A stretch of 35,157 nt of DNA from Gloeocapsa sp. DLM2.Bin57 (GTDB lineage: Bacteria > Cyanobacteriota > Cyanobacteriia > Cyanobacteriales > Gloeocapsaceae): positions 1 to 35,157 of the forward strand of contig RECR01000098.1 in NCBI GenBank assembly GCA_007693955.1, given 5' to 3'. Positions 9,456-34,687 of the stretch are shown piece after piece (position 1 is the stretch's first letter; the number at the start of each line of letters is the position of its first letter). The notes beneath the pieces were generated by a model that worked only from the letters and a program-made list of their open reading frames with translations, was not told the DNA's origin and ran no database searches. The position numbers and the translations under genes are program-made.

Positions 9456-11093
9456 TTAATTACCAAAACTGTTAAAGATTTGTTCAAACTCATTAAACAA
9501 CCCTACAGCTTGTCCATTATCACCCTGAATATGATTAAATGAATGTTCTATCTGATGTAATTTTTCTCGTATTTCATTAATGCCATCTTGCCAAGGTTGT
9601 AAAATCTGCTCAGCAACCTGGACTTGGGCTTGTATTAACGCCGATTCCCTGTGCAAATTCTGTAAATTTTCTAACTCTCTTTCTAATTCATTTTCTTTTT
9701 GTTGATTAGTATTACTTTGTTGATCAATCAACTCCTGAATACTCCCTAGATTTGACCCGAGACTATTAATATCTGGCTCTAACCTTTCTTTTTCTTGTTG
9801 TAAAGAATTATACTGTGTTTCTAAAAGGGCAAAGGTTGCTTGAAATGCTTGTCTATGTTGGTATAAATCTTGATATTGAGCTAAAATATCCCTTCTTTCT
9901 TCTAGAGTCGCTTTTTGACCCTCTATAGTTTCTTCCATCATGTTTTTTCTTTCTTGAGCATCAGCTAACTCTTGTCTGATTCTTTCTTTTTCTGAATCAT
10001 CAACTTCATCTAACCTTTTTTCTAACTCAAGAACACTTTCTACCTCTATACTCAGTTCTTCTTCTTGTCCATTAACGATAAATGTCCATCTTTGTAATTC
10101 TTGTTCTAGTTTATTGACCTCTTCTTGTAACTCTTCTAAAGAAAGACTCTCTAAAAACTCAAAATTATCAATAGGATGTTTATATTCTTTTTGTTCATTT
10201 TTAAATGATTTAATGCTATTAATTAGATTACTTCTTAACTCTTGATTACTTTGTAAATTAACATTAAGAATCCCTAGAATTCTTTGCTTATTCTGTAAAT
10301 CAATTTGTTGTTTTTCAAAGTCTATTTTTGCTTGTTCGATAGTTTTTTGTGCTGAAGATAATTCTCTTCTTTTATCTTGTAATTGATTAGCTAACTGTTC
10401 AACTTGGTTAGCTTTATGATCAGCTTCATTACGACGTCTTTCTAGATTATGCCATTCCTGTTCTAGATATTCTTGTTGAGTTTGAATAGCTCTGAGTATA
10501 ATCTCAAATTTTTCTTTAAGAGAATCTGTGCCCTGAAAAACACCCGCAAAACTATTGATTAGCTCTTTTAGTTTCGCTATTCTTTCCTCTCCTAGTACCT
10601 GGTTAGGGTGTAAATTCTCAATCTGTTGTTGATTTTCGGTTAACTTTTGCCAAGCTTCCTCTATTTCTCGGCGCTTTTCCTCAATATTAGCTAATTCTTC
10701 CTCTTTTTGGGCTATTTCTTGGAACTGAGACTCTAATTCCTCTCGACGTTTCTGCAATTCCTGACTTTGATAGGTTAGAGATTCTTTCCAATTATCAATC
10801 GATTCTTGCTCTTCTTGAGCTTTTTCTAACATACGGGAAAAATACTGTAACATTCTAACTATACGAGTACCCCCTAGTTCAGGATTACCCTGAACCTCCC
10901 GATTATTACTGAGGTTGACAAATACTAACGCTCCCTCTCCTACAGAGTTGACGTAATCACAGGATACTATCTCTTCGTTAGGTACAGTATTCCAAGCTTG
11001 ATCATCTCGTTGGAAAGCCAGGAGTTTAAGTTCTGTCTTTAAACCACCTATTAATCCCTTTGTCTGTTTTTTTACTTCTGCTAGATATAGCAC
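9456..11093 (-). CDS. hmpF: Pilus motility taxis protein HmpF (long coiled coil)
   Basis: HmpF is a cyanobacterial coiled-coil protein that, in Nostoc punctiforme, gathers at cell poles and is needed for type IV pilus activity and directional motility. The N-terminal 90 residues are the conserved globular head (MLYLAEVKKQTKGLIGGLKT and, later, GEGALVFVNLSNNREVQG and GGTRIVRMLQYFSRML). From about residue 90 to 530 the sequence is rich in Glu, Gln, Lys and Leu in heptad-like order, a long coiled coil with short breaks. The length of 545 is close to known members. The start codon is GTG. It is divergent from pilH-pilI-pilJ, as expected for a motility locus. A good promoter lies about 100 bases upstream, leaving a leader with a small hairpin. 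Confidence 0.88.
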   Translation of the reverse strand: MLYLAEVKKQTKGLIGGLKTELKLLAFQRDDQAWNTVPNEEIVSCDYVNSVGEGALVFVNLSNNREVQGNPELGGTRIVRMLQYFSRMLEKAQEEQESIDNWKESLTYQSQELQKRREELESQFQEIAQKEEELANIEEKRREIEEAWQKLTENQQQIENLHPNQVLGEERIAKLKELINSFAGVFQGTDSLKEKFEIILRAIQTQQEYLEQEWHNLERRRNEADHKANQVEQLANQLQDKRRELSSAQKTIEQAKIDFEKQQIDLQNKQRILGILNVNLQSNQELRSNLINSIKSFKNEQKEYKHPIDNFEFLESLSLEELQEEVNKLEQELQRWTFIVNGQEEELSIEVESVLELEKRLDEVDDSEKERIRQELADAQERKNMMEETIEGQKATLEERRDILAQYQDLYQHRQAFQATFALLETQYNSLQQEKERLEPDINSLGSNLGSIQELIDQQSNTNQQKENELERELENLQNLHRESALIQAQVQVAEQILQPWQDGINEIREKLHQIEHSFNHIQGDNGQAVGLFNEFEQIFNSFGN

Positions 11094-18693: not shown

Positions 18694-18702
18694 CAACGAA
18701 AA

Positions 18703-18721
18703 GGGGCGCTCTGGCGCCCTT
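18703..18721 (+). terminator. Hairpin after ispG
   Basis: GGGCGC (18704-18709) and GCGCCC (18714-18719) pair around a TCTG loop, extended by one G-U and one A-U pair. Only TTAA follows, so the U-tract is weak, but position 10 bases after the ispG stop supports termination. Confidence 0.65.
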
Positions 18722-18738
18722 AAGGGTTCGCAGGAAGG

Positions 18739-18815
18739 GGTTAGGTATTAGGTACTATTATTCCTATATAATATAACATGCTCCCCGTCTCCCCCTCTTC
18801 CCTCTTCCCTAAACT
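18739..18815. repeat. Dispersed intergenic repeat, copy A
   Basis: The sequence GGGTTAGG-like, then TATTATTCCTATATA (18756-18770), then a C/T-rich tract (CTCTTCCCTCTTCCC) recurs after murG at 24912-25000, where the 15-base core is identical. Both copies directly follow a rightward gene. It looks like a small non-coding mobile or slippage-derived element. Confidence 0.55.
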
Positions 18816-19122
18816 CAAAAGGGCAATTATAATCTTATTTAATAACCATATCCCAAAATAAACTGATTTTTTTAAGAATTAGGTTACTTAAATTAATTGA
18901 TTCTCCTTAGTAACTAAAGTTATTTAACTTTATATTAAAAGGTCTTAAAAATAAGAGAATATTTTCTCAAAAATAACTATTATATAAACATAATGAATAG
19001 TTAAAGATAAATCGAAATAGCGAGGCGGAGAGGAGAACCAAATCAGTATTTTGATATAAACTATTTAACCGTAAAAATACGGAAAAGTCAACAAGTCATT
19101 CTTAATAATGGAGACTAAAATA

Positions 19123-19599
19123 ATGGCTACTGAAGAAAAGAAAAAAGAGAATCGTTTACGCTTAACTAATTTAGCTTTATTAAGCCTTGCTGCAGGAGCT
19201 TGGGACATTCTAGGCAAAAAAGGAGTTAACTCCTTTAGTAATCAAATGGGAGACCAAATCCTGAAAGTTATGGAACAAGAAATGGGCTTAGAAATAGCAG
19301 GAGAAGATCCCGAAACAGTTTTAATGGAAGTTAGTCGTATCTTTATCGATGAGTATGGTTTTGCTAGTGATATCGATATTGAAAAAGTAGATGAAGAAAA
19401 TTTCCGCATCAAAGTACACAATTGTGTCAACCGTAGTTTTACTGATAAATTAGCAGAAGCAGGAGTAGAACACCCCTACATTTGCCCCATTATGAACGCT
19501 AGTCGCTCCGCTTTAAAACGCATGGGTTATAAAGTCCAACAAAACATTAGTAAATGGCCCGAAGGTAAAGGCTCAATCATTGAGTTTAGCAAGATTTAA
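19123..19599 (+). CDS. Small V4R-like / methanogen-output-domain-like protein with two conserved-looking cysteines
   Basis: The 158-residue product has an N-terminal helical part (NLALLSLAAGAWDILGKKGV) and a C-terminal alpha/beta part (FRIKVHNCVNRSFTDKLAEA, then HPYICPIMNASRSALKRMGY). The layout, with His99, Cys101 and Cys121 near the end, recalls V4R-type small-molecule or metal-binding domains and the related methanogen output domain; this assignment is tentative. There is no signal peptide. The ATG at 19123 is chosen because GGAG lies 9 bases ahead, while the ATG at 19108 has no ribosome site. It is the first gene of a tight operon with the amidoligase (20 bases on) and the glutamine amidotransferase, so it may bind the substrate or sense the product of that pathway. 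Confidence 0.65.
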   Translation: MATEEKKKENRLRLTNLALLSLAAGAWDILGKKGVNSFSNQMGDQILKVMEQEMGLEIAGEDPETVLMEVSRIFIDEYGFASDIDIEKVDEENFRIKVHNCVNRSFTDKLAEAGVEHPYICPIMNASRSALKRMGYKVQQNISKWPEGKGSIIEFSKI

Positions 19600-19619
19600 C
19601 CCAAAGGGGCTGACGCAAG

Positions 19620-20912
19620 ATGAAAGATCCCATTATCCTACCGAGTAAAAAAACTCTCACACCCACAGAAGATAGTTACTGGAAAGACTTATTGTATCGA
19701 GTTACCAAAATTGGTACAGAGTTAGAAGTAGCACCACCCAAAAGAATCAAGCGCGCGGTGTTTGAAGAGGAGATTAACCAAGCTCTCGAACCCTCCCATA
19801 GTTTAGATAAGCTCGGTTGTAATGGAGTCTTAGACGTCACACCAGAACATTGTGGTATCGAAATCAGAATCATTGGTCGTCAACCCCATTTTCGTAAACT
19901 GCAAGAACAATATAGTAAAATATTCCAGGTTCTACAGGATAAAGGTGCTCGTCCTAAAGCTACCTGTGGGCTTCATTTTCACCTGTTAACTCCTGGTTTA
20001 GGAGAGCCTGTACCAGAATTAATTTTAGCCAATCTCTGGAATTTGACTCGTCGTTACGCACCAGAATTGAAGTTTATCACCTCTGGGGGAGAAAAAAGAG
20101 AGAGTCTCTGTCGTCGTCGTAATCACAATAGTCACCTAGAAATGGTTAATCTCTCTCCTGGTATGATGAGTATCAAAGAGATAAAAACTGCTCTCAAAAA
20201 AAGTCATCGAGTCCCTGAACATCAGAATTTTCTTAACCTCGAACACATTGATTTTACCGAAACAGGTGATATTTTTCCCTTTCACATAGAGTTTCGTTTT
20301 CCTGATGCTGATTTTTCCGCTACTGCAATCACCGCTAAAACTTTTCTATTTTTAGCTATGCTACTCAAAGCCGTTGACTTGAGTCAATATGGTGTGATTC
20401 ATGTAGGAAAAGTACAAGCTTGGCGACGGAAGGTGGAAATATTAGACGAACTTAGTAATAATCAAGGTAATTTAGCAGCAAGTGATACTAGTGGCGTAAC
20501 TGATGAGATGATTGAAGAACTACGACAGGGCTGTTATGAGTTATTGGACTTATTAGCCCCTACCTTTAATCGTTTTATTGATAATCCCGCTTTAGATATC
20601 TTAACAGCTTTGGCTGAACAACCAATCTCTCTGATGCGCTGCGCGGGTTATGATTGGACAGAAATAGAGTCGATTTTAGCTAATAGAGCCAATCAAGACG
20701 AAATAGGATTTGATGAAACCGATCGCCGTCTGATGCAATGTATAGAATTGGGAGAATGGGATAATTTAGCCTCCCCTGACGCTTGGCGTTGGCACGCCGC
20801 CCGTAATCTCTATCTTACACCTCAAAGTCTAGAACGTCGTCTGCAAGAATTGGATAAACTGCGGGGTTTGTCCTGGGATTCCCGTCAAGGTAAAATGGTC
20901 TTTCAAAGCTAG
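19620..20912 (+). CDS. Putative amidoligase (glutamine-synthetase-fold COOH-NH2 ligase, Amidoligase_2-like)
   Basis: Amidoligases of this type share the glutamine synthetase/GshA fold and use ATP to join a carboxyl group to an amine or ammonia. Visible motifs of the fold are GTELEVAPP (residues 32-40), HCGIEIRIIGRQP (78-89), CGLHFHL (116-122), and FHIEFRFPDA (221-230). They supply acidic metal-binding residues (Glu34, Glu36, Glu81, Glu224) and basic residues for ATP or phosphate contact. The C-terminal 130 residues are helical. It is cytoplasmic. The next gene, a class II glutamine amidotransferase, starts 5 bases later and would release ammonia from glutamine for this ligase. The acceptor substrate is unknown. 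It does not look like ordinary GshA or GlnA. The family assignment is from recalled motifs, not a search. Confidence 0.75.
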   Translation: MKDPIILPSKKTLTPTEDSYWKDLLYRVTKIGTELEVAPPKRIKRAVFEEEINQALEPSHSLDKLGCNGVLDVTPEHCGIEIRIIGRQPHFRKLQEQYSKIFQVLQDKGARPKATCGLHFHLLTPGLGEPVPELILANLWNLTRRYAPELKFITSGGEKRESLCRRRNHNSHLEMVNLSPGMMSIKEIKTALKKSHRVPEHQNFLNLEHIDFTETGDIFPFHIEFRFPDADFSATAITAKTFLFLAMLLKAVDLSQYGVIHVGKVQAWRRKVEILDELSNNQGNLAASDTSGVTDEMIEELRQGCYELLDLLAPTFNRFIDNPALDILTALAEQPISLMRCAGYDWTEIESILANRANQDEIGFDETDRRLMQCIELGEWDNLASPDAWRWHAARNLYLTPQSLERRLQELDKLRGLSWDSRQGKMVFQS

Positions 20913-20917
20913 TCATT

Positions 20918-21691
20918 ATGTGTGGAATAGCTAGTGTCTTTTTATATCCCGAACAGCGATCGCCCCAAGTCTGGTCAGGAATTCGGTCAAATTTTACCGC
21001 TAATCTGCTGTTTAACGAACAACGAGGAGAAGCAGCTACAGGTTTAGCGATAGTCAATCGCTATGGTGAAACCTCTATTTATAAACAACCTCTTCCGGCT
21101 CATAAATTTATCGCTACTGAAGCTTATCAAACGCTCTTACAAGGAATTAATCAAGATACTGTCTTGATCTTAGGTCATACCCGCTTACCTACACAAGGTG
21201 CTGCCGAAGATAACCGTAATAATCACCCTCTACAAGCAGGCTCTATTTATGGTATTCATAATGGACATATTCACAACGATCGTCTCTTATTTGACCGTTG
21301 GGGTTTTCCAAGAGAAGCTGAGGTAGATAGTGAGATTATTTTTCGTTTACTCGCCGATTGTAGCGCTAATTGTCCAGAAGAAATCGAGCTTTTATCCTTA
21401 TTTAAACTGAAATTAAGCAGTCTGGAAGGAAAATACACTTTTTTAGCCACAGATTCTCGTATTCCCGAAAGACTATTAGTGGTTAAACACAATAACCCTA
21501 TTTCTCTACATTTTTGTTCAGAATCAAATACCCTGATTTTTTCCTCTAGTTATATTTTCTTGCGTAAAATGTTTGGTAGAGTGGTGATCAATGAATGTTT
21601 ACCCAATCACCATCTCGCTTTATTTAGAATAGAATATCTCACTGAGTTAAAATCTACTCCCTGGAAGCTTTTGAATTTACAAGAATCTTAA
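20918..21691 (+). CDS. Stand-alone class II glutamine amidotransferase
   Basis: This Ntn-fold glutaminase hydrolyses glutamine to feed ammonia to a partner. Cys2, exposed once Met1 is removed, is the catalytic nucleophile (MCGIAS). Other pocket residues are in RGEAATG (36-42), GHTRLPTQG (86-94), NNHPL (101-105) and GIHNGHIHN (112-120), in the order of PurF/GlmS/YafJ-type domains. At 257 residues it has no fused synthase or phosphoribosyltransferase domain, so it needs a separate acceptor enzyme. The adjacent amidoligase, 5 bases upstream, is the obvious partner. After it comes a 72-base AT-rich gap and pta, which probably has its own promoter. Confidence 0.85.
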   Translation: MCGIASVFLYPEQRSPQVWSGIRSNFTANLLFNEQRGEAATGLAIVNRYGETSIYKQPLPAHKFIATEAYQTLLQGINQDTVLILGHTRLPTQGAAEDNRNNHPLQAGSIYGIHNGHIHNDRLLFDRWGFPREAEVDSEIIFRLLADCSANCPEEIELLSLFKLKLSSLEGKYTFLATDSRIPERLLVVKHNNPISLHFCSESNTLIFSSSYIFLRKMFGRVVINECLPNHHLALFRIEYLTELKSTPWKLLNLQES

Positions 21692-27437: not shown

Positions 27438-27530
27438 CTTTTTCTAGTAAACTTACTGATTTTCCCCCAATTTTTAAATTTTAAATGTTAGATTGGATTT
27501 GTAGGAGTGAACTTATTGTGTGGTGAAAAA

Positions 27531-29099
27531 ATGACTGTATCTAACTTTTTAGATTTCTTTGATAGTTATTATATATTTGGTGATAGCCTTTCTGATGTTA
27601 ACAATTTTACAGCATTAGATCCCGTTGGTCCTATTCCACAATTAAATCTCTTTAACCAAGGTCGCTTTACTAATGGTAACGAATCAGAAGGAGTCTGGGT
27701 TGATTATTTTACCAATGAATTAAACCTAGAATTAAGCTCTTTTTACCAAGGTGGTATAGCATCCGGAGAAGTAACCGTTGTTGACGGGATTAATTTTGCT
27801 CTAGGTGCAGATACTTCAGGCTCTAAAAATATATCACCTTTAGACGAGTTTTTTGATTTAGGACTAACTAATCAGGTAGATCAATTCGTCGATTTAGTAG
27901 AAACTGGTATTGTTGAGTCTGTCGATGATAGTCTAATTATCAACTGGATTGGAGCTAACGATTATCTCGATGTTGCTTTAACTCAACCTGATACTGTTGA
28001 TACTCCCGAAGAAATAACCGATTTTGCTAGTCAAGTTGTTGATAATATTACCTCTTCTTTAACTACTTTCTTAGATTTAGGTGCAGAAGTTATCGTTGTC
28101 CCCAATATGCTAGATCTTGGTTTAACTCCTCTAGCTAATCTTAATCAAGTGGCTGAGGTAGTTACCAACCTAAGTATAGCTCATAACGAAGCCCTAGAAA
28201 CTAGTCTGACCCAAGTCCGAGAAGATTACCCTGATGTGAGAATCATTGAGGTAGATATGTTTGACTTTTCTGGGGAGATTTATCCAGAGTTTGAGAATAA
28301 TACAGAAGGTGCAACAGAAACCAACCTCTATCCTGCTCCCTTTACCCCTGTTAATCTAGATCCTAATCTGTTTCCTGGTAGTTTAGAGAATTATGAAGCT
28401 GCTTCTCAAAGAGCAGAAGATTTTTTCTGGTGGGATAGTGTTCACCCAACCACTGCTGTACATGAATTAGTCTTTGAACACATTCTCGATACTATCACAG
28501 GAGAATTAATTACTACTGGAACAAGAGGTGATGATCTTCTCATCGGTAGTAATGGTAAAGAAAGGATTCTCGGTTTCTCTGGTAATGACACCATCACGGG
28601 AGGTACAGGTAATGATACCCTTATTGGTGGAGCAGGAGATGATGTCCTCTTGGGTGAGTCAGGTAATGATTCTCTAATCGGTGGTAGTGGTAATGACTTA
28701 CTTATCGGTGGACCTGGTGATGATACCCTCAATGGTGGTCCTGGTAATGATACCTTAGTAGGTGAATCAGGGGATGATTTCCTCATGGGAATGAGTGGGA
28801 ATGACTTACTTATCGGCGGACCTGGTAACGATACCCTCAATGGAGGTACAGGTAATGATACTCTCGTTGGTAGTGAAGGGAATAACCTCTTTATCGGTAG
28901 TCCTGGAAGTAATTTAATCCATGGGGGAACTGGTGAAGATACTTTACAATATCGCGCTGTTCGTCGTCGCTTTGAATTTGAAGGTACTCCCGAGCTTTTT
29001 ACCGCTTCTAGTCCCCAATTTGGTACAGATACCCTAATTAATGTGGAATTTATCCAATTTAGAGATGGTTTATTTGCGGTCAGCGATTTGTTATCTTAA
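27531..29099 (+). CDS. GDSL/SGNH hydrolase with C-terminal RTX calcium-binding repeats
   Basis: This is a secreted esterase or lipase by architecture. The N-terminal two thirds are an SGNH hydrolase: block [12 protein letters not shown] with catalytic Ser19, block [12 protein letters not shown], and block [14 protein letters not shown] with the Asp/His pair. From about residue 335 there are roughly fifteen nonapeptides of the GGxGNDxLx type that bind calcium and direct export by a type I system; there is no Sec signal peptide. The ATG at 27531 is used; a GTG eight codons earlier (27507) and a TTG at 27516, the latter 8 bases after AGGAG, are alternatives. It ends 10 bases before a strong terminator. 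The natural ester substrate is unknown. Confidence 0.88.
28525..28945 (+). repeat. RTX nonapeptide repeats (27-bp units)
   Basis: About fifteen tandem units of roughly 27 bases encode GG-x-G-N/D-D-x-L/I-hydrophobic. Several neighbouring units are close at the DNA level (for example ACTTACTTATCGG near 28695 and 28803), which suggests growth by duplication within the gene. Confidence 0.85.
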
Positions 29100-29160: not shown

Positions 29161-30189
29161 ATGGATTATAAACAAGCAGGTGTAGATATCCTCGCTGGTC
29201 GTGCTTTTGTTGAACGTATCCGTCAAGGTGTAGAAAGTACCTATCGTCCCGGAGTTTTGGGCAATTTGGGAGGGTTTGGTGGTTGTTTTGAACTTCCCTC
29301 GGGTTATCAACAACCTGTACTAGTATCGGGTACAGATGGAGTAGGAACTAAATTAAAAATTGCTCAAGAGGTTAACCGCCATGATACTATTGGTATCGAT
29401 TTGGTGGCTATGTGCGTTAATGATGTTTTGACCAGTGGTGCTGAACCTCTGTTTTTTTTGGATTATCTGGCTACAGGAAAATTAAAACCAGAACAATTAG
29501 CTGAGGTAGTTAGTGGTATTGTCACTGGTTGTAACCTTAGCGGTTGCGCTCTTATTGGTGGGGAAACCGCGGAAATGCCGGGTTTTTACGATTTGGGAGA
29601 GTACGACTTAGCAGGTTTTTGTGTGGGAATCGTGGAAAAAAGTAAGCTTTTAAACGGTTCTCGCGTTAATCTAGGAGAGGTGGCGATCGCTCTGACTAGT
29701 CAAGGTGTCCATAGTAATGGTTTTAGTCTAGTACGTAAAATTGTAGCTGATCATCAGTTGGATTGGCAGTATCAACCTGATTTACTCGAAGGTTTAACCT
29801 TAGCTGAAGCTTTGTTAACTCCTACCCAAATTTATGTCAAACCTGTGTTAAATCTACTTAATTCAGGTGTAGATATTCACGGGATGGCTCATATTACTGG
29901 TGGTGGTTTACCAGAAAATGCTCCTCGTTGTCTTAATCAAGGACAATCTCTGTTAATTAATCCTAATAGTTGGGAAATTCCCGGGATTTTTCGTTGGTTA
30001 GCCCAAAAGGGAAATGTTCCACCAGAAGCTATGTTTAATACTTTTAATATGGGAATTGGTTTTATTTTGATTCTGCCATCTCAACAAGTAGAATTAGCTT
30101 TACAATTATTAGCTAATGATGCTATTAAAGCCTTTAAATTGGGCGAAGTCGTTACAGGTAATCAAGAAGTTCTTGGTATTCCCCATTAA
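29161..30189 (+). CDS. purM: Phosphoribosylformylglycinamidine cyclo-ligase PurM (AIR synthetase)
   Basis: PurM closes the imidazole ring in purine synthesis (FGAM + ATP to AIR). It has the family N-terminus [13 protein letters not shown], the glycine-rich [16 protein letters not shown], the active-site region [34 protein letters not shown], and [14 protein letters not shown]. The length of 342 residues is normal. The ATG at 29161 gives the expected start; a TTG at 29149 would add four residues. It converges on the diguanylate cyclase gene with a 4-base overlap. No other pur gene is nearby. Confidence 0.94.
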
Positions 30190-32048
30190 TCTTTGTCTGG
30201 TCTTTTAGATCCCACAATAACGCGGTTGCGTCCTTTGGCTTTAGCTAGATATAGCGCTTTATCTGCTATATGAATTAAAGTCTCCTCATCTTCGCCATGA
30301 TTAGGAAAACTTGCTATACCAAAAGAAGCGGTTATTGTCGGTATTTTTTGCTCAAGATATTCCAAATTTAAATTTTTAATAACTATTTGTAGTTTTTTAG
30401 CTCTATAAACTAATTGCTTCAGAGACATATTAGGAATAATTATCACTATTTCTTCCCCACCATAGCGACAGATAAGATCTTCTTTACGAATATTATCTTT
30501 TAAATAATTAGCTACTTTTTGTAAAACCAAATCTCCCGCTAAATGTCCATAAACATCGTTAATTTTTTTAAAATAGTCAATATCTACTATGATAACACCT
30601 AATAATTGTTCGGAATTTTTAGCCTTAATTAGATATTCAGTAAAACTTTTAGTCAAATAACGACGATTATATAACCCTGTTAAAGCATCTCGATTGCTTT
30701 GATCTTGTAAGTTTTCTTGCAGTTTTAAATTAGCTATAATCAAAGCTATTTGTTTAGCTGCGGTTTGGGCTAAACTAATTTCTTCTTCTGTAAAATCAGA
30801 TTCAGTAGCACTATATAGAGATAATAAACCAGTAATTTCTCCTTGAGCAATCATGGGGATACACAAAGTATTATTACCCTGAAAAACTTGTTGATTATGA
30901 CAACAGTATAACTCAGGATAATTATAATTAGCTTCGTAGATATGACCAGTACGTAAAGCCCAACAATCATCTATATTAAAGTTGGTTAAGCTAACACATT
31001 CTCTCCCCCAATAGGATAGTATCTCCATTGTCTGGGTTTGATTATTTAACATAAATACTGCTCCATTAAATTTAGCAAATAATGGTTTCAATAATCCTCC
31101 TAGTGTTTTTTTTACTTCCTCGAAATCTTTACATACTTGTAAAAAGTCGTTAATTTTACCGAGTTGATTCATTTCTTGATTACGTAATCTTAACTGACTA
31201 ATTTGTGACTCTAAAGTCTCGTTTAATTTTAATAAATCCATTTTCGATTCTTTTAACTCGGTAATTTCTGAAGAAATACTGATTATTTGCTTAGGGTTTC
31301 CTTCTTCATCTCTATGAAAGACATAGTTAATAGTTTCAAACCAACGCCATTGATTTTTACTATCTTGCAGTCTATATTCTATTTTTAAACCATCTAATTT
31401 AATATTTTCAAAAAATTGTGAGCAGTAAACGTTAAATAATTCTATATCTTCCCCATGACAAAGACTTTTGATTAATTTCATTCCCTGATTTTTCAAGTTT
31501 TGTATAGGTAAACCCAAGATTTCTGTTAAAGATTGATTACCATAATTTATTTGACCTTCTAAGTCATAAATATAGACAATATTGGGAATTAAATTCAGAA
31601 CTTTTTCAATAAAATAATTACTTTCTTCTAATTCTTGGGTTCTTTGTTGGATACGGGTTTCTAGTTCGGAATTAAGATTAATATTTTCCTGGATTAAAGC
31701 TTCTAACTTTGTGGGAGAAGGTAAACTTAATGCTTGGGGAATAATTGGGATTAATTCAAAAACAGTATAGATAGAAACTAAAGCTGTGATTGCTTTAACT
31801 ATTCCTGATAACCAATAATGGGGATACCAAAGAGTCCAAATTTCTAGTAAATGTGTCGTTCCACAGGTGAGAATAAAGAAAGAAAAGAGGATAAACATAC
31901 CCTTAAAGGGTACATCTGTTTTCTTTTGCACATAAACCAAAAAACCAGGAATAGAATAATAAGCTAAAGTTATTGCGCCATCAGAAATAACGTGTAGAGA
32001 TACTAAATTAGTTTGCCATAAATAACAATGTCCATGAGGGATAAACAT
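30186..32048 (-). CDS. Diguanylate cyclase with ethylene-receptor-like membrane domain, PAS and GAF
   Basis: The 620-residue protein should make c-di-GMP in response to a membrane-bound signal. Residues 15-105 form three helices that match the ethylene-binding domain of plant ETR1 and Synechocystis Slr1212: [17 protein letters not shown] with Asp23, and [13 protein letters not shown] with Cys62 and His66, the copper ligands in C-x3-H spacing. A coiled coil (115-145), a PAS domain (145-268) and a GAF domain (about 300-440) follow. The GGDEF domain (452-615) starts [11 protein letters not shown], has the metal/substrate Asp in [11 protein letters not shown] and the active GGEEI at 530-534. The inhibitory site RxxD (RKED, 521-524) is five residues upstream, so product feedback is likely. 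It follows the EamA gene by 12 bases. Confidence 0.88.
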
Positions 32049-33289: not shown

Positions 33290-34687
33290 TTAAACGACGA
33301 AAATGTCTCTATGAGTCAGAGGTGGTGCATCCCGCAGAGAAGCGATCGCCACTTGGTTAAACCAGAGTCTCCCAGAGTCGGGATTGTAAATTAACCCGTT
33401 TTCCTGATTAAATAATTCTGAGGGTAAAAAAGTTCGTGGGGGTAAATCTAAATCAAAATCTCGTCGAGAAATAACGATAATATCTCTACCAGGTTGAAAG
33501 TCTCGGATACGTTGGAATCCTACACCAGGTGGAGTTAACACAAAGCGATCGCTACCTACACCACCTGTAAGTATATTATGACCAGGTCCACCAAATAAGA
33601 GATCATCTCCTGCACCACCAATTAAGGTATCATTACCTTGAGCACCCCTGATGGTATCATTACCAGTTGTACCCCTAATCAAATCATCTCTAGGACTACC
33701 GTTAAAGTTTCCTTGTGTCCTATTTTTGACCTCTCTAACCGCAGCATAAGTATTTAAACGCAAATATTCTAACTCTGTATTTTCTACGTTGTCGTCTTCG
33801 TCATCCCCATCAAAGATAGTATCTGCGGTAGTCATTAAAATGTCTCTGATTTGTTGAGGAGTTAATAAACTGTCTCCAAATTCTAAGGCTGCTTGCTGCA
33901 TTAAAACTACAGTCCCTGTTACCATGGGTGTAGCCATACTTGTACCCGCTTTTGTCCCTAATTCATCTCCTGGAATGGTACTATTAATAACAGCACCAGG
34001 TGCAAATAAAAAGTTATCAGCTTGGAGACGTTGACTAAAACTAACCAGGCGATCGCTATCTGTAGAATAATCAATACCACCCGATCGCCACTTTACCCGA
34101 TTATCTGTTTGATCTTGCCAAGTTGCACCCACAGCTAGGGTACTATAGATAGCAGGAGAAGCTAAACCTGGTTCTTGATATCTGAAATAATGATTACCTC
34201 CGGCTGCAACTACGCTAATTCCTTGGGTTTCTAACTCTGTGATTTGGTTAAGTATAAAATCTTCTTCTACTTCATCTACTGAGGTATAAAAACCACTCCC
34301 ACCAGAGATATTAACCGCGATAATATTATATTCTTCTTGATTTTCTGATATCCAATCTAAAGCTTCAGCTAGGGGGGTGTTGTCACCCTCCCCATTATTA
34401 GCAAATACCCTTAAAGGTATCAAACCTACAGCAGTAGCAATACCAATATCAGGATCACTAGCTCCAATAATACCCGCTACGTGTGTTCCATGTCCATCTG
34501 TATCGACAATTTCTTCACTATCTTCGAGAAAATCATATCCTCTGCGATAATTAGCTTCTAATAAAGAGTGATTGGTGTCTAATCCAGTATCGATTATGAC
34601 TACACTAAACCCACTCCCATCTAAACTACTAAACTCGGAGTCGTTACGCAATTGGGTTAAACCAATAATCTCAAAAGCTGAACTCAT
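33290..34687 (-). CDS. Subtilisin-like (S8) serine protease with C-terminal RTX repeats
   Basis: The catalytic triad is complete: Asp33 (VVIIDTGLDTNH), His66 (DGHGTHVAGIIGA) and Ser250 (GTSMATPMVTG), with oxyanion Asn165 (AAGGNH). After the catalytic domain, about residues 338-385 contain calcium-binding RTX nonapeptides ([20 protein letters not shown]), and the rest is a beta-rich tail. There is neither signal peptide nor a recognisable pro-domain; the protease begins within 30 residues of the start. RTX repeats suggest type I export. The ATG directly follows the stop of the WD40 gene with no gap, so the two are translated together. The target proteins are unknown. Confidence 0.9.
   Translation of the reverse strand: MSSAFEIIGLTQLRNDSEFSSLDGSGFSVVIIDTGLDTNHSLLEANYRRGYDFLEDSEEIVDTDGHGTHVAGIIGASDPDIGIATAVGLIPLRVFANNGEGDNTPLAEALDWISENQEEYNIIAVNISGGSGFYTSVDEVEEDFILNQITELETQGISVVAAGGNHYFRYQEPGLASPAIYSTLAVGATWQDQTDNRVKWRSGGIDYSTDSDRLVSFSQRLQADNFLFAPGAVINSTIPGDELGTKAGTSMATPMVTGTVVLMQQAALEFGDSLLTPQQIRDILMTTADTIFDGDDEDDNVENTELEYLRLNTYAAVREVKNRTQGNFNGSPRDDLIRGTTGNDTIRGAQGNDTLIGGAGDDLLFGGPGHNILTGGVGSDRFVLTPPGVGFQRIRDFQPGRDIIVISRRDFDLDLPPRTFLPSELFNQENGLIYNPDSGRLWFNQVAIASLRDAPPLTHRDIFVV

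Follow-up and report, generated by a model that had tools for sequence, protein, structure and literature searches.

A three-gene locus of Gloeocapsa encoding a putative amide-forming enzyme pair and a predicted TRAPP/V4R-fold protein, linked in relatives to Ras-like GTPase/Roadblock operons

Introduction

The locus described here raises the question of what three adjoining genes of a cyanobacterium do together. They lie on a contig of 35,157 nucleotides from Gloeocapsa sp. DLM2.Bin57 (RECR01000098.1 of assembly GCA_007693955.1), which was analysed over its whole length and is called the window below, and they encode a small protein (SP), a ligase-like protein (LIG) and a glutaminase (GAT). 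A first-pass annotation had read them as an operon for an amide-forming pathway. Phage studies and comparative genomics have described pairs of an amidoligase and a class II glutamine amidotransferase (GAT-II) (PMC10580990, PMC6209634), and Ras-like GTPase/Roadblock systems are likewise well established (PMC4316618); we ask here whether the trio is better understood as a metabolic pathway standing on its own or as an accessory to such a signalling system.

Results

The three open reading frames were found co-oriented and tightly packed, as first described, with gaps of 20 bases between SP and LIG and 5 bases between LIG and GAT (Table 1). Because all 11 SP homologues open with MATEExK and a GGAG stands nine bases 5' of the ATG at 19123, SP likely starts at this ATG and not at 19108. 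In comparisons with a relative labelled uncultured Gloeocapsa, dN/dS was 0.09 for SP, 0.04 for LIG, and 0.15 for GAT; therefore all three are functional genes under purifying selection. The gene upstream of the trio is presumably ispG, as recognised from its sequence, and downstream there are a phosphate acetyltransferase (pta-like) gene and a murG-like gene; in this genus the trio has only ispG on one side and the pta-like gene on the other, apart from any cassette. Elsewhere in the window we noted two proteins with RTX-type calcium-binding repeats (27507-29099 and 33290-34687), of which one has a GDSL lipase domain and the other a subtilase domain, a diguanylate cyclase (30186-32048) having an ethylene-receptor-like N-terminal domain together with PAS and GAF domains, and, on the minus strand, a 545-aa open reading frame with no Pfam match (9456-11093).

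Table 1. Features of the trio and its leader in the window.
Feature	Position	Strand	Description
SP	19123..19599	+	158 aa; predicted TRAPP/V4R (Bet3-like) fold; MATEExK N-terminus and two Cys invariant
LIG	19620..20912	+	430-aa ligase-like protein; GxExE / xIEx / HxH / ExR motifs of GS-fold amidoligases
GAT	20918..21691	+	257-aa stand-alone class II glutamine amidotransferase (Ntn, Cys2)
Leader	18694..19122	+	AT-rich; downstream part kept within genus; no Rfam match

Two inverted repeats in the leader had been taken to hint at dedicated control. These two perfect 8-bp hairpins were matched by 45 of 300 shuffles, promoter- and terminator-like sites in the leader were no different from those in shuffles, and the perfect palindromes were not conserved in relatives. 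With repeats and sites at chance level, palindromes not conserved, and no Rfam match, we concluded that control through the leader is unsupported.

The assignment of GAT as a stand-alone Ntn glutaminase with Cys2 was borne out. The protein begins Met-Cys (MCG) and matched GATase_6 (PF13522) at 4e-12, with 46.8 bits against a cut-off of 27. It matched GlmS at 4e-15 versus EgtC at 4e-4, the best hmmsearch matches were GlmS, and the GAT profile aligned with the GlmS glutaminase domain at 4e-18. Residues Cys2, R89, T92, N115-G116, and D137 of GAT aligned to the glutamine site of GlmS, whose glutamine-binding residues include R73, T76, N98-G99, and D123, and all were invariant; Cys2 was missing from a single homologue, whose start had been placed within the gene when the alignment was made. 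Judged by its sequence, GAT is a class II glutamine amidotransferase with all of the glutamine-site residues.

The motifs by which LIG had been called a glutamine synthetase (GS)-fold ligase were all present: GTELE (32-36), GIEIR (79-83), CGLHFHL (116-122), and FHIEFR (221-226). Residues G32, E34, E36, E81, H119, H121, E224, and R226 were invariant in 11 LIG homologues. In a post hoc test, 409 of 200,000 shuffles of LIG reached the same ordered set of GxExE (32), HxH (119), and ExR (224), and TC6_049, a phage protein that passes PF12224, carries the motifs in the same order, at positions 19, 91, and 180. The Amidoligase_2 profile (PF12224) did not confirm the family: LIG scored 12.4 bits (E 0.14) where the cut-off is 22 bits, and the best of the 11 homologues reached E 0.037. 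We dropped the filing of LIG under Amidoligase_2, as it fell below the curated cut-off. No NCBIfam model matched LIG, which lies below every curated family cut-off, and none of the 11 LIGs matched the GshA/EgtA-type (GCS) models of NCBIfam or Pfam. No significant match was found among solved structures, nor any sequence match to PafA/Dop. In profile comparisons with hhalign, LIG gave E 0.11 against Amidoligase_2 and 0.0077 against COOH-NH2_lig (PF14395), a test in which these two known families fail against each other too (E 0.022) and which so has no discriminating power; with phage amidoligases there was no match, and the positive control failed as well. The AF2 model of LIG, built from five close sequences, had a pLDDT of 48, too poor to prove a fold; its top Foldseek match was Dop, at a nonsignificant E of 0.06, and guanido kinases were among its weak structural matches (Z 4-5). 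Both Dop and the guanido kinases have a GS-like fold. LIG would thus be a GS-type ligase at the level of motifs only. It represents a well-conserved protein family, 56-68% identical outside the genus and, in alignments of homologues, conserved far better than SP or GAT, that is named in none of the libraries searched.

The claim that the small protein is V4R-like agreed with its modelled fold. The AF2 model of SP had a pLDDT of 75 and a pTM of 0.73, and with it Foldseek returned TRAPPC3 as the best match (E 2e-4, probability 1.00). VIA aligned the model with TPC6 (Z 10.3, rmsd 3.3, 138 aligned) and with Thorarchaeal TRAPPC3 (Z 9.8, rmsd 4.0, 142 aligned); further fold matches were to H-NOX, the V4R domains of PoxR and MopR, and BcsD, all of which share one broad fold. 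We conclude that SP has a predicted TRAPP/V4R fold. V4R and Bet3 are regarded as homologous, and hydrophobic ligands are the supposed binding partners of V4R domains (PMC2253512). Neither Pfam V4R nor TRAPP matched any of 11 SP homologues at E 10, the only match being NitrOD5 (0.015). The C-terminal half, described earlier as a Cys/His domain, has two Cys (101 and 121) and no His that are invariant in the 11 homologues. With only two invariant Cys in this alignment, SP lacks the four-Cys zinc site that is a feature of PoxR and Thor-TRAPPC3 (PMC10933270). Heme sensing of the H-NOX type was rejected despite the fold match, as there is no invariant His to ligate heme.

LIG is rare, occurring in 3 of 291 cyanobacterial genomes, in two genera; of the other two genomes belonging to the genus of the window, one encodes LIG and the second, which is more complete (4.0 Mb), does not. 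Outside Cyanobacteria it was found in a Thermoflexales MAG, in one further genome among 400 drawn from Chloroflexota, and in 8 of 48 genomes of the order to which that further genome belongs, one of these copies being a fragment. A contig search with a single sequence yielded two loci only, and the remaining loci came from wider genome searches. The order SP-LIG-GAT was constant in Cyanobacteria and Chloroflexota, and the genes stayed together save in one genome (G002), in which SP and LIG are intact and the trio's GAT was not found. In the trees of both LIG and SP, the cyanobacterial copies grouped together. LIG was found neither in plasmids nor in IMG/VR viral contigs, which leaves an origin in a mobile element or phage without support. 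Two loci had other peculiarities: in G002, a histidine kinase gene on the opposite strand follows 59 bases after LIG (L022 14490-14549), and in G720 the N-terminal part of LIG (L054 7558-7869) stands at a contig edge, followed directly by the REC-GAF gene, and is either truncated or an assembly artefact.

At eight loci, two from one cyanobacterial genus and six from Chloroflexota, the trio or SP and LIG lay in a single co-oriented operon with genes for a Ras-like GTPase, Roadblock/LC7, and DUF4388. The cyanobacteria G002 and G027 have the order Roadblock, Ras-like GTPase, DUF4388, SP, LIG, with GAT next in G027. In the Chloroflexota (L005, L028, L047, L048, L050, and L053, the last counted on SP and the contig-edge start of LIG), the trio lies among genes for a Ras-like GTPase, several Roadblock proteins, DUF4388, and response regulators, and in several of these operons for a REC-GAF protein also; at L049, DUF4388/Roadblock-like genes are present at the contig edge. 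The trio stands before or after the GTPase depending on the locus, its internal order unchanged. Directly upstream of SP, L049 (11373-11744) and L050 (5647-6018) encode a 123-aa protein with no Pfam match. The repeated linkage, the strongest clue obtained, points to signalling and not to a free-standing metabolic pathway, and suggests amide chemistry as an input to, or a means of tuning, a signalling switch.

The genome to which the window belongs has Roadblock, Ras-like GTPase, and DUF4388 genes side by side on another contig (C78; L055 8080-9879), unlinked to the trio; their products are 79%, 67%, and 48% identical, respectively, to those of the trio-linked cassette of G002. In G237, of another cyanobacterial family and a third genus, a stop-riddled SP remnant (L056, about 9555-9923) lies directly behind an intact Roadblock-GTPase-DUF4388 cassette, which is trio loss in progress; a hemerythrin-like gene follows the remnant. 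The cassette's Roadblock gene occurred in 57 of 145 cyanobacterial genomes, most of which do not have the trio. Co-occurrence in cyanobacteria therefore proves little, and the trio would be an addition to a more widespread system, in many cases lost or never present.

Discussion

The reading of the three genes as an amide-forming operon stands in part. A GS-type ligase at motif level, an intact stand-alone GAT-II, a V4R-like fold for SP, and the keeping of the trio over two phyla speak for it; against it, LIG stayed below the Amidoligase_2 cut-off, the Cys/His domain of SP has no conserved His, and the leader repeats are at chance level. Of the findings that the first-pass annotation had named as refuting it, a GshA/EgtA match was not observed, and separation of the three genes was seen only as the missing GAT of one genome. 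"Amide-forming pathway" is a plausible label, and the genes probably encode an ammonia-using, amide-making enzyme pair and a small binding protein. We propose, tentatively and with somewhat less than even confidence, that SP-LIG-GAT serves a bacterial signalling system of the Ras-like GTPase/Roadblock type as an accessory module for chemistry. GAT would hydrolyse glutamine, or a gamma-glutamyl amide, to supply ammonia, and LIG, as an ATP-dependent ligase of GS fold, would use this ammonia to amidate a carboxylate. SP, of a fold type that may bind hydrophobic ligands or dock on GTPase regulators, would bind the substrate or product and pass its state on to the Roadblock/GTPase/DUF4388 cassette, whose genes in the window's organism lie elsewhere in the genome. 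Counting against this proposal, LIG matches no enzyme family or solved structure significantly and its AF2 model is poor, G002 has SP and LIG but no GAT, and trio and cassette lie apart in the window's organism, where the argument from context for GTPase coupling is indirect; that argument also draws on MAG contigs with edges.

A rather unlikely alternative is a free-standing metabolite pathway in which GAT and LIG produce a small amide that SP binds or senses, the GTPase neighbours being incidental or regulating expression only. The solitary position of the trio in the window's genus fits this alternative, as do phage pairs of amidoligase and GATase_6 that have no annotated GTPase (PMC10580990; TC6 genes) and the ligands that V4R domains are thought to bind (PMC2253512). 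It is opposed by the recurrence of the GTPase/Roadblock/DUF4388 linkage in two phyla with differing surrounding gene orders, and beside the trio we saw no recurrent transporter gene and no other recurrent gene of metabolism.

We consider it unlikely that LIG, aided by GAT, amidates or otherwise modifies a carboxylate of a cassette protein, thereby setting the switch. The best candidate target would be SP, through its MATEExK N-terminus: five of the six positions in SP columns 2-7 are invariant (p about 0.001) although whole SPs are 35-54% identical to the window's copy between phyla. The far greater conservation of LIG, and Dop, a protein-acting GS-fold enzyme, as its nonsignificant top Foldseek match, are in line with such a role; however, a dimer helix or docking of LIG could also explain the conserved N-terminus, and the LIG model is unreliable. 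A gamma-glutamyl cycle in which LIG adds a gamma-glutamyl group and an EgtC-like GAT removes it after a further step, with no free ammonia, is very unlikely: EgtA/EgtC do combine a gamma-glutamyl ligase of GS fold with a hydrolase of GAT-II fold, GAT does match the EgtC model weakly, and its conserved Arg/Asp pair is expected to recognise a gamma-glutamyl moiety in both cases, but GAT is nearer to the GlmS glutaminase, LIG has no EgtA/GshA match, and we saw no further egt gene in the window.

The known systems closest to the trio include the Amidoligase_2 and GATase_6 pairs of phages (phiEco32-like, TC6, MEP401), which share the order of the GS-type ligase motifs, a class II glutaminase nearby, and predicted amide chemistry; unlike these, LIG is cellular, below the PF12224 cut-off, 430 aa long versus 315 aa in TC6, and accompanied by a TRAPP/V4R-fold protein and GTPase neighbours. 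SP resembles the V4R and Bet3-TRAPPC3 families (PF02830, PF04051) in predicted fold and in length, and the small GTPase and Roadblock proteins that accompany it bring to mind the TRAPP/Asgard setting (PMC10933270); it differs in having no Pfam sequence match and two invariant Cys in place of the four-Cys zinc site, and the paired-glycine motifs were not seen. The operons of relatives are like MglA/MglB and the conservons (Cvn) in combining a Ras-like GTPase, a Roadblock/LC7 regulator, and response-regulator or GAF proteins, whereas amidoligase, GAT-II, and V4R-like genes are not described there in the literature searched, and the window itself has no GTPase. EgtA/EgtC of ergothioneine synthesis likewise join a GS-fold ligase to a GAT-II-fold enzyme; LIG has no family-level match, and GAT is nearer to GlmS. 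PafA/Dop, the Pup ligase and deamidase, belong to the protein-acting class of GS-fold enzymes and supplied the weak top structural match of the LIG model; that match is not significant, and we noticed neither Pup nor proteasome genes in the vicinity. The literature searched, to which the amidoligase survey of 2009 did not belong, yielded no description of amidoligase/GAT-II combined with a Ras-like GTPase/Roadblock system and a TRAPP/V4R-fold protein, and no paper in it linked roadblock to either an amidoligase or a glutamine amidotransferase.

Ras-like GTPase/Roadblock systems occur widely in bacteria, and most have no known input. A conserved enzyme pair with a TRAPP/V4R-fold protein in GTPase operons offers a testable one, in the form of a small amide or of protein amidation. 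With it, a predicted TRAPP-like fold stands beside a small GTPase and Roadblock in bacteria, a setting so far discussed for eukaryotes and Asgard archaea. That the Ras-like GTPase/Roadblock switch is controlled by covalent amidation of SP (or of the GTPase, or of Roadblock) by LIG and GAT, with SP as a TRAPP-like adaptor, seems to us quite unlikely; if it were true, nitrogen status, in the form of glutamine, would be read into a Ras-like switch by chemistry.
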